Source: Echinarachnius parma (Eukaryota; Echinodermata; Echinoidea; Clypeasteroida; Echinarachniidae). From it: 64,000 nt of DNA. Positions within the stretch are counted from its first letter, which is position 1; every line of letters begins with the position of its first letter. Location of the stretch: contig JBAMJV010005509.1 in NCBI GenBank assembly GCA_037951105.1, positions 1-64,000 of the forward strand. Direction: 5' to 3'. The notes below the pieces were generated by a model. The model had not been told where the DNA came from, ran no database searches, and was given only the letters and a program-made list of their open reading frames with translations. The translations under genes and the position numbers were made by a program. Below, one piece after another: positions 49,945 to 62,608 of the stretch.

Positions 49945-50352
49945 CTACATGAGTCCGCTGAATTCCTGCATGATCATCTCAGCCGAAGGCCGGTCTGATG
50001 GGTTCTTCTTGAAGCATGGCTTCACGATGCCTTTGACCCTTCCATCAAGCTTATCGACTCCACGAGGTATGACATCGCACCCCATGAATTTCGCCATAAA
50101 AGCAAACTGGTTCATTGGTGGCCAGACCCGATTGCCAGTGAAAAACTCAAGGAATGTGCAAGCTAGCGACCACACATCAAAGCCACTGCTGGCTTTCATC
50201 CCGCTGTCGTCTATTTGAAGGCTTTCAGGTGGCATGTACATCATGGTTCCCCGTGCTTTGGAGATGTGTGAAGGCTTGGACATGGTGCATCTTGTCTTGA
50301 TGTGTGCTAGCCCGAGGTCGCATAGGTACGGCCTGTGAAGCATCCGCTCAAC
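49945..50352 (-). CDS. Kinase copy 2, terminal exon
   Basis: Acceptor CTGGTAG, stop TAG at 49,945-49,947. [63 protein letters not shown]. Most differences from copy 1 are in the activation loop and before helix F ([22 protein letters not shown]). Confidence 0.92.
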   Translation of the reverse strand, partial: VERMLHRPYLCDLGLAHIKTRCTMSKPSHISKARGTMMYMPPESLQIDDSGMKASSGFDVWSLACTFLEFFTGNRVWPPMNQFAFMAKFMGCDVIPRGVDKLDGRVKGIVKPCFKKNPSDRPSAEMIMQEFSGLM

Positions 50353-62300: not shown

Positions 62301-62608
62301 GCCGGCATTACCTTACTGACTACAATTTTGAAGCGCCCTCTAAACCAAAAATTAACCATCCCCTTGAAAACGCCAGATTGATTGAGCTTCGCACAAACCT
62401 TCTTGAGTAGATTTGAGTCTTCGATCGTATGTCCCTGTCGGTGTTTCATCACGGCCAGGTGAAGGCACGCATCCCCGTCGCCATCGGCCGAATTGACGTC
62501 GGCTCCGTGGTCGATCAGGTCTTCGACGATGAGGGTGTAACCACGCGCGATGGCCAGGACCAGTGGAGTTACATGCTGCTCGTTATACATGTCGATGGCA
62601 CACTTCCC
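49945..62608 (-). CDS. Ankyrin-kinase gene, copy 2 (Mind bomb-like ankyrin end fused to a TKL-like kinase; 7 exons, 5' end outside)
   Basis: Gene-level entry, read on the minus strand. Exons 62,399-62,608, 61,685-61,863, 57,308-57,426, 55,774-55,963, 53,880-53,994, 52,752-52,871 and 49,945-50,352 sum to 1,341 nt, exactly 447 codons with the stop, and every junction is phase-compatible. Residues 1-130 are ankyrin repeats, 131-169 an acidic Gly-rich linker, and 171-446 the kinase: GKGGFGEV 193-200, Lys213, HLDIKPQN 302-309 (non-RD), DLG 323-325, MPPE 351-354. The ankyrin end ([28 protein letters not shown]) resembles the last ankyrins of Mind bomb E3 ligases, where RING fingers would normally follow. 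The start and any MIB/HERC2 modules would lie right of the window. No frame break is seen, so the gene is probably intact here. Confidence 0.85.
50510..51840 (-). mobile_element. Alternating inverted-repeat array in kinase copy 2 intron
   Basis: Outer ends AAACACACACAAAAAGTAACTT and complement AAACACAACAAAAAAAGTAAC. Inside, a unit of about 170 bp with CTCGGCAGGATTGTTCCTAC, CACACAGAAGTTAGTCA and GGACCAATTTCATTTTCAC appears about seven times in alternating orientation (near 50,585+, 50,803-, 50,993+, 51,127-, 51,320+, 51,489-, 51,739-). Absent from the matching intron of copy 1. Confidence 0.8.
52017..52568 (-). mobile_element. TTAA-type MITE, orthologous insertion to 3,622-4,121
   Basis: TTAA at 52,017-52,020 and 52,565-52,568; ends AAAGGGATAGTTGAGTTTTG. 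It occupies the same intron position as the copy-1 element and shares its internal sequence. Confidence 0.88.
52752..52871 (-). CDS. Kinase copy 2, catalytic-loop exon
   Basis: Acceptor ATTAAG, donor ATT/gtaagt; 40 codons, phase 0 to 0. Contains HLDIKPQN; identical to copy 1 except Gln for His. Confidence 0.92.
53139..53862 (+). mobile_element. 5'-truncated LINE 3' end inserted in kinase copy 2 intron
   Basis: Opens within the reverse-transcriptase C-terminus ([20 protein letters not shown], then [17 protein letters not shown]) and ends with an A-rich tail at 53,831-53,862. The conserved [12 protein letters not shown] matches the IRHCGPDIWNSL of the LINE at 23,346-25,285, a related but different family. 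Copy 1 has the uninterrupted ATTCCTATTTTGTGAAATG at about 1,945-1,963. Confidence 0.82.
53880..53994 (-). CDS. Kinase copy 2, helix C/beta4-5 exon
   Basis: Acceptor AATTTTAG, donor AAG/gtatac; 115 nt. [16 protein letters not shown] and [13 protein letters not shown]. Confidence 0.92.
54169..55550 (-). other. Intron of kinase copy 2 with copy-specific sequence
   Basis: Contains a TTAA MITE fragment (about 54,169-54,290, GCGATCTAGTAACATTG), a short AATGTCAGAGG repeat, and three spaced copies of GGTGTCC..TTTACACGTGAAACAT (about 54,849, 55,207 and 55,381). Most of 54,490-55,540 has no counterpart in copy 1, so it is a later insertion of unknown type. Confidence 0.55.
55774..55963 (-). CDS. Kinase copy 2, glycine-loop exon
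   Basis: Acceptor ATCTCAG, donor AA/gtgagt; 190 nt, same phases as copy 1. [35 protein letters not shown]. Glu instead of Val after the second Gly-Phe-Gly is the more usual residue of the two. Confidence 0.92.
56365..57043 (-). mobile_element. Tc1/mariner-type fold-back MITE, about 190-bp TIRs
   Basis: Ends CAGTGCGAGTAAAAAAAAAA and complement CAGTGCGAGTAAACAAAAAA, then CGAAACCGGACTTTGATAGC; TA flanks. Copy 1 has the empty site GACTCTAGTACAGAGAG at about 704-720, so insertion postdates duplication. Confidence 0.92.
57308..57426 (-). CDS. Kinase copy 2, linker exon
   Basis: Acceptor CACTACAG, donor G/gtacga; 119 nt. [20 protein letters not shown] then [19 protein letters not shown]. Phase 2 in and phase 1 out fit the ankyrin exon at 61,685 and the glycine-loop exon. 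Confidence 0.8.
58113..59175 (-). mobile_element. LINE reverse-transcriptase fragment, frameshifted
   Basis: Minus strand: [26 protein letters not shown] segment, [20 protein letters not shown], catalytic [32 protein letters not shown] and [20 protein letters not shown], then a decayed [10 protein letters not shown] end. Frames change near 58,990 and 58,740. It lies in the 4.3-kb intron between the ankyrin and linker exons. Same family as 33,873-34,712. Confidence 0.85.
59176..60060. other. Intron of kinase copy 2, unassigned
   Basis: A short tandem of CCCACAATGCCCATAATG borders it at 59,140-59,172. GGGATAATTGG recurs three times at 59,290-59,350. No exon seen. Confidence 0.45.
60181..60325 (+). 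repeat. (TG)n microsatellite, about 70 units
   Basis: Pure TG repeat with one or two C interruptions; a second short TG run lies at 60,535-60,570 and another at 60,721-60,740. Frames reading VCVCVC or HTHTHT here are artefacts. Confidence 0.97.
60340..61030. mobile_element. hAT-like debris with poly-G/C runs
   Basis: CCCCGGTTTCCG/CGGGGATATGCCC words, C runs at 60,816-60,836 and 60,930-60,957 and GGTCTCG units like those in 40,536-41,142. Ends not determined; CAGGGACGTAGACAACGG at 60,058 may be a left end. Confidence 0.5.
61685..61863 (-). CDS. Kinase copy 2, last ankyrin exon
   Basis: Acceptor CAACCTAG, donor AG/gtgagt; 59 codons plus 2 nt. [59 protein letters not shown]. The [14 protein letters not shown]...KHTPLNY pattern is a terminal ankyrin repeat. 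Confidence 0.85.
62329..62366 (-). mobile_element. Remnant end of the GGTTAGTTTTGG MITE family
   Basis: AAGCGCCCTCTAAACCAAAA then ATTAACCATCCCCTTG resembles the right end of the 3,622 and 39,839 elements. Confidence 0.5.
62399..62608 (-). CDS. Kinase copy 2, upstream ankyrin exon
   Basis: Acceptor GTATGTAG, donor AAG/gtttgt; 70 codons, phase 0 to 0. [55 protein letters not shown]. One complete ankyrin repeat ([10 protein letters not shown]...LIDHGADVN) and the start of another (GDACLHLAV). More ankyrin exons are expected to the right of the window. Confidence 0.88.

Follow-up and report, generated by a model that had tools for sequence, protein, structure and literature searches.

Structure of the gene

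The window, i.e., the whole stretch of 64,000 nucleotides (nt) analysed here, consists of the first 64,000 bases of contig C5503 (228,834 bases) in the 1.2-Gb assembly of Echinarachnius parma. It carries seven minus-strand exons between 62608 and 49945, which encode ankyrin repeats of Mind bomb type, a linker and a protein kinase, and, near its left end, part of a second gene of the same kind, copy B (Table 1). When spliced, the seven exons were in phase throughout and gave 1341 nt (446 codons and a stop codon), and Pfam placed a Pkinase domain over amino acids (aa) 188-440 (5.3e-45) and ankyrin repeats (Ank, 6.9e-08) in the 446-aa product. The places and phase of these exons, as claimed in the initial annotation of the window, were confirmed, and the junctions that it had drawn, 61685/57426 and 57308/55963, are exact in the genomic splice model.

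On the part of the contig right of 64,000, 13 further in-phase coding exons were placed on the minus strand, from 92502 to 64088. Open frames were inspected by eye for them, guided by the layout of MIB1, and their limits were then set by splice sites and phase. The full gene model has 20 coding exons, is open over 1096 aa and shows GT-AG boundaries at all 19 introns; two in-frame stop codons precede the first ATG in exon 1, and the G+C content is 0.514 in the coding sequence versus 0.383 across the gene span. The 13 upstream exons complete a Mind bomb front half, and the arrangement recurs in copy B and in exons 4-20 on contig C1041 (see below); these three results argue against a chance origin of the seven-exon observation. 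Judged from its sequence, the feature in the window very probably forms the last third of a Mind bomb-type gene that is intact, is present in multiple copies and has a TKL kinase at its end, at the position of the RING fingers.

Pfam detected in the 1096-aa model two MIB_HERC2 domains, a ZZ domain, two SH3_15 domains ('Mind bomb SH3 repeat'), ankyrin repeats and a Pkinase domain (aa 838-1090), in the order MIB_HERC2-ZZ-MIB_HERC2 (MZM), two SH3_15 (REP), ankyrin block, linker and kinase. The part from the first MIB_HERC2 into the ankyrins lies right of 64,000, where MIB/HERC2 and ZZ domains would be sought if the ankyrins of the window were Mind bomb-like, as had been proposed; both were found there, upstream in the same gene model. 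The model matched the solved MZM-REP structure of MIB1 (4xi6) over aa 5-375 (337.7 bits, E = 7.9e-100). The ankyrins, when compared with solved structures, returned mostly designed ankyrins, and the family was assigned from the upstream domains instead: on the MIB_HERC2, ZZ and SH3_15 domains and the 4xi6 match, the front half is assigned to the Mind bomb family. The family traits present are the MZM front, the two REP repeats and the ankyrin block after REP; the trait without a match is the C-terminal RING fingers, as the model ends in the kinase. A linker exon equivalent to exon 16 was present at the same position in copy B and on contigs C1041, C2799, C8509, C2342 and C7191.

Two partial duplications were seen beside the exons. 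A stray partial copy of exon 4 (C5503 94692-94588, minus strand; 105 nt, 90% identical) lies upstream of exon 1 and is probably a fragment of another copy of the gene, and 38 nt from the very start of exon 10 recur as an exact duplicate about 200 base pairs (bp) upstream (C5503 76487-76450, minus strand).

Kinase class and conserved residues

Seven complete kinase copies were assembled, six of which were placed in alignment A1. The copy on C8509 has a changed donor at exon 18 and was therefore left out of A1; it was included in the set used for omega, the ratio of nonsynonymous (dN) to synonymous (dS) substitution rates, with its extra codons as gaps. This donor is unlike that of the six other complete copies, and in the assembled copy a donor 21 nt further on, in frame, was taken in its place. 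The copy on C104, without exon 17 in the stretch examined, was left out of both sets. The glycine loop, the VAVK/VAIK lysine, the helix-C glutamate, the HLD aspartate, the catalytic asparagine and the DLG aspartate were invariant in 6/6 aligned copies; K43, E58, D134, N139, D153 and E184 (alignment numbering) were invariant in the same six kinases. Because the catalytic residues are invariant, kinase catalysis is plausible. Pairwise omega of the kinase lay between 0.14 and 0.70 in all 21 pairs of the seven copies.

The kinase is assigned to the TKL group. Its nearest solved kinases were B-Raf, RAF1 and CTR1, both among the best 60 of 2579 solved relatives in a sequence search and among the best 60 of 2628 in a profile search; MAP3K5 and a plant lectin kinase were also among the best 60 in the sequence search. 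Of the initial annotation's proposal of a TKL/RIPK-like kinase, the TKL part stood, and a specific affinity to RIPK was not supported: no RIPK appeared among the best 60 of the 2628 solved relatives in the profile search, a list heavily populated by Raf entries and thus a weak test of a RIPK link. As HLD replaces HRD, the kinase is classed as non-RD.

Copies of the gene in the assembly

The GT-AG sites of copy B occupy the same places as in the main gene, and all indels between the two are multiples of three. Between the two kinases, dN was 0.058 and dS 0.216 (276 codons). The longer aligned stretches, introns included, were 84-90% alike, and the duplication is therefore fairly recent.

On contig C1041 (plus strand), exons 4-20 are repeated in the same order and phase, with 16 of the 17 exons of identical length. 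Their 928-aa product has no inner stop, and its Pfam domains agree with those of the main model; MIB_HERC2 matches were found on the same strand at 4761 and 8243. For exons 4-20 overall, dN was 0.066 and dS 0.278 (dN/dS about 0.24); the corresponding dN and dS values were 0.056 and 0.190 for the MIB-REP part, 0.066 and 0.255 for the ankyrins, 0.092 and 0.135 for the linker, and 0.069 and 0.427 for the kinase. Continuity of the gene between domain marks was read over the whole gene on C5503 and from exon 4 on in C1041.

In a genome search with the ankyrin-end exons (150 of 3198 candidates scored), strong matches to both exon 14 and exon 15 were found, among the matches listed, on eight contigs (C5503, C2342, C5477, C2799, C104, C1041, C8509 and C7191), and a kinase lay downstream on the same strand in all eight. 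Together with exons 4-20 on C1041, this rules out an assembly chimera. Weaker members with the same order were C11027 and the pair C5289/C8396. The copy on C5477 (6650-11594, plus strand), whose last kinase exon contains stops and a broken frame, is probably a decaying member of the family.

MIB_HERC2 matches were obtained on 36 contigs of the whole assembly, beyond the yield of two or three Mind bomb genes; some of these contigs are probably alleles, and some may carry genes of the HERC2 or HECTD1 type, in which the domain also occurs. At least 10 of the 36 also matched the kinase in a search that scored 140 of 198 candidates; in all 10, a kinase was downstream of MIB_HERC2 on the same strand. 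Close copies of the kinase stood beside MIB_HERC2 on C5503, C8509, C2342, C1041 and C104, and divergent kinases (34-60% identity), potentially other members of the TKL group, on C4390, C8396, C5289, C1083 and C5890. On C4390 one more kinase lies upstream, and on C5503 copy B occupies the opposite strand.

Table 1. Exons of the Mind bomb-type gene and of copy B on contig C5503
Feature	Coordinates	Strand	Description
Exon 1	92502-92271	-	splice sites and phase
Exon 2	91862-91691	-	splice sites and phase
Exon 3	91285-91179	-	splice sites and phase
Exon 4	89640-89449	-	splice sites and phase
Exon 5	83824-83715	-	splice sites and phase
Exon 6	78557-78450	-	splice sites and phase
Exon 7	78140-78036	-	splice sites and phase
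Exon 8	77504-77351	-	splice sites and phase
Exon 9	76988-76807	-	splice sites and phase
Exon 10	76293-76145	-	splice sites and phase
Exon 11	70651-70495	-	splice sites and phase
Exon 12	64780-64626	-	splice sites and phase
Exon 13	64214-64088	-	splice sites and phase
Exon 14 (exon 1 of the initial annotation)	62399..62608	-	Mind bomb-type ankyrin repeats, model aa 651-720; splice sites and phase, Pfam Ank
Exon 15	61685..61863	-	final ankyrin repeats, model aa 721-780; strong matches in 8 contigs among the matches listed
Exon 16	57308..57426	-	acidic/glycine-rich linker, model aa 781-819
Exon 17	55774..55963	-	kinase N-lobe: GKGGFG loop, VAVK lysine, helix-C glutamate
Exon 18	53880..53994	-	kinase
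Exon 19	52752..52871	-	kinase catalytic loop HLDIKPQN; acceptor site also present in copy B
Exon 20	49945..50352	-	kinase C-lobe (CDLGLA, PPE) and stop codon
Copy B linker exon	309..448	+	second gene, tail-to-tail; front half cut off by contig start
Copy B exon 17 equivalent	1087..1276	+	kinase
Copy B exon 18 equivalent	1817..1931	+	kinase
Copy B exon 19 equivalent	3317..3436	+	kinase
Copy B exon 20 equivalent	4582..4998	+	kinase, with stop codon

RING fingers and RING-bearing Mind bomb loci

No RING was found in the Pfam scan of the 1096-aa model. A RING hidden in the introns or downstream was also considered and rejected, as a RING-like cysteine pattern, which was run without a positive control and is blind to a RING split by an intron, had no match on either strand of the whole 228,834-base contig. 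In a genome search for RING (PF13920), in which 150 of 705 candidates were scored, none was listed on the 14 kinase contigs. The search was also silent at C4305/C5658, recognised as MIB1-like by ZZ and a second MIB_HERC2, and its silence on the kinase contigs is therefore weak evidence. Taken together, RING is likely to be absent from the gene.

Among the matches listed, C2000 and C6651 have RING on the same strand as MIB_HERC2 and downstream of it, in the latter 16 kilobases (kb) behind the second MIB_HERC2 match with an ankyrin match in between, and C2546/C318 have RING behind weaker MIB_HERC2 matches; these pairs are positional co-occurrences on contigs, not gene models. At C1904, RING was upstream of a broken MIB_HERC2 match, which departs from the order of Mind bomb proteins. 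An intron follows QDG in the second MIB_HERC2 domain on C5503, on C11820 and on the RING-associated C2000 (by donor and split match); on C5658 the domain is unsplit. Judged from this one intron, the kinase form would be closer to the C2000 type than to MIB1, and it may have originated by exchange of C-terminal exons.

Repeats and mobile elements around the gene

Reverse transcriptase frames of a retroelement occupy 23488-24898 (plus strand) of the window, of which 23488-24198 matches RVT_1 at 1e-34. Reverse-transcriptase-like frames were also recognised by eye in intron 15 (58180-59200, minus strand), where the frame 58183-58785 had no Pfam match, and a similar frame lies at C5503 66716-66135. 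A minisatellite with 10 copies of a 42-bp unit at 8316-8736 is open in several frames on both strands. In intron 19, a 325-bp unit is repeated twice (50736-51381) inside a longer stretch that, judged by eye, resembles a palindrome. The Rfam scan of the window gave no match.

Alternative explanations and proposed mechanism

The exon 15-16 join is read from genomic sequence, the intron between the ankyrin end and the linker is long (4258 bp) and contains the reverse-transcriptase-like frames described above, and the equivalent gap on C2342 is about 49 kb. These points would suit two genes that lie next to each other, of which one, Mind bomb-like, would stop behind the ankyrins and the other, beginning with the linker, would encode a kinase on its own. 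Against this, the codon split at the GT donor of exon 15 is continued in matching phase at the start of exon 16, order, strand and phase are identical in C1041, and a kinase follows the ankyrin-end exons in 8/8 listed strong contigs; we consider two genes very improbable. A single protein might instead be a kinase-dead scaffold. Its TKL domain would then be a pseudokinase whose sole role is to bind partners, and the protein would naturally compete with RING-type Mind bombs. HLD in place of HRD and DLG in place of DFG fit such a scaffold, as does the general expectation that a RING-less Mind bomb keeping its docking half would interfere with RING forms. However, RIPK1 is an active kinase with DLG, the catalytic residues are invariant in the six aligned copies, and the kinase evolves under constraint, as seen from its dN/dS in C1041 and from omega of the seven copies. 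We hold a pseudokinase to be unlikely. A dominant-negative fly Mib1 without the MZM, described in a passage of PMC11887331, is a different deletion, in which the C terminus is kept.

The copies might also form an expanded family of innate-immune kinases, in which the Mind bomb front would sense or scaffold immune adaptors and the non-RD TKL kinase would feed into NF-kB or MAPK signalling, Notch signalling being left untouched. The many copies, two of them tail-to-tail, are consistent with this, as are HLD, which places the kinase in the non-RD class tied to innate immunity across kingdoms in a passage of PMC8463890, and a comparable expansion of RIP-like kinases with new domain partners in amphioxus, as reported in part of PMC9573974. 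The best-listed solved relatives, on the other hand, are Raf and CTR1, not RIPK or IRAK. The support for an immune function, from copy number and HLD, is circumstantial, and we regard this explanation as a contender that is rather doubtful.

Overall, we lean towards a substrate-recruiting kinase without RING as the best explanation. According to a passage of PMC11887331, MIB1 and Drosophila Mib1 use MZM and REP to bind Notch ligands at two short boxes of their cytoplasmic tails. By analogy, the MZM and REP front half may still dock the tail of a partner protein, and the ankyrin rod and the flexible linker, which is acidic, glycine-rich and of different length between copies, would position the kinase, with the linker giving reach. 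The kinase would then phosphorylate the docked protein or a neighbour or associate of it. As the model contains no RING, the protein would be no RING E3 by itself, and would compete with or modulate RING-bearing Mind bombs, or have a separate, expanded signalling role. This docked-kinase mechanism is put forward tentatively.

Several observations weigh against a substrate-recruiting kinase of this architecture. Beside the HLD and DLG motifs and the wide gap on C2342, three kinase pairs involving C2342 have omega above 0.5 (with small dS), the linker alone is unconstrained between the two copies in the window (dN 0.078, dS 0.041, 40 codons), and the frame of C5477 is broken in the last exon. 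The RING search missed the RING expected at the MIB1-like locus, which slightly lowers our confidence in the architecture, and the same gene may have an alternative RING-bearing 3′ end. Both the binding of Notch ligands by the MZM-REP surface and the kinase activity are predicted from sequence.

A further-reaching reading, which we consider speculative and improbable, is that the Mind bomb substrate receptor moved from ubiquitin to phosphorylation in this lineage. The kinase family would then read the same tail motifs as the Mind bomb E3s and phosphorylate them, so that Notch ligands, or the partners of the duplicated copies, would receive a second input of an opposing or tuning kind. If Mind bomb proteins ending in kinases are recurrent, the substrate-reading half would be a portable module, and a natural RING-less Mind bomb would be a tool for studying how docking, apart from ubiquitination, contributes to ligand activation.

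Comparison with known systems

Mind bomb proteins are regarded as dedicated ubiquitin ligases. The E3 ligases MIB1 and MIB2 share with the present model MIB_HERC2-ZZ-MIB_HERC2, two SH3_15 (REP) and the ankyrin block, in the same order, whereas RING fingers are C-terminal there and a linker and TKL kinase are C-terminal here. Among the titles and abstract openings listed in searches of the open-access literature, none describes a Mind bomb kinase; unnamed database entries with the same architecture may well exist. In passages of PMC2394772, MIB_HERC2 and Pkinase are named only as separate hub domains.

RIPK4 and ANKK1 also combine a kinase and ankyrin repeats in one protein, but have an N-terminal kinase, C-terminal ankyrins and no Mind bomb front, so that the order is reversed here (part of PMC9573974). 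The RIPK-like kinases of amphioxus are likewise expanded and joined to unusual partners (LRR, DEATH, ZU5 and Zalpha); they differ in that part 1 of 2 of the domain table in PMC9573974 lists no MIB_HERC2 partner.

The plant RING E3 KEG (KEEP ON GOING), the closest architecture among the papers listed, likewise joins a kinase to ankyrin repeats and to SH3_15 repeats of Mind bomb type in one chain, as described in passages of PMC11701565 and PMC11020294. In KEG the order is RING, kinase, ankyrin and SH3_15, whereas SH3_15 and ankyrins precede the kinase here and the model has no RING; the MIB_HERC2/ZZ module is unmentioned in those passages. A sunflower kinase of the TKL-Pl-1 subfamily with a C3HC4 finger, ankyrins and six Mind bomb SH3 repeats, described in a passage of PMC11646777, is probably KEG. 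As KEG retains RING and has another domain order, it is a parallel to the Mind bomb kinase, not a member of the same family, and its comparable parts raise the possibility that kinase, ankyrins and Mind bomb repeats came together on several occasions in evolution.

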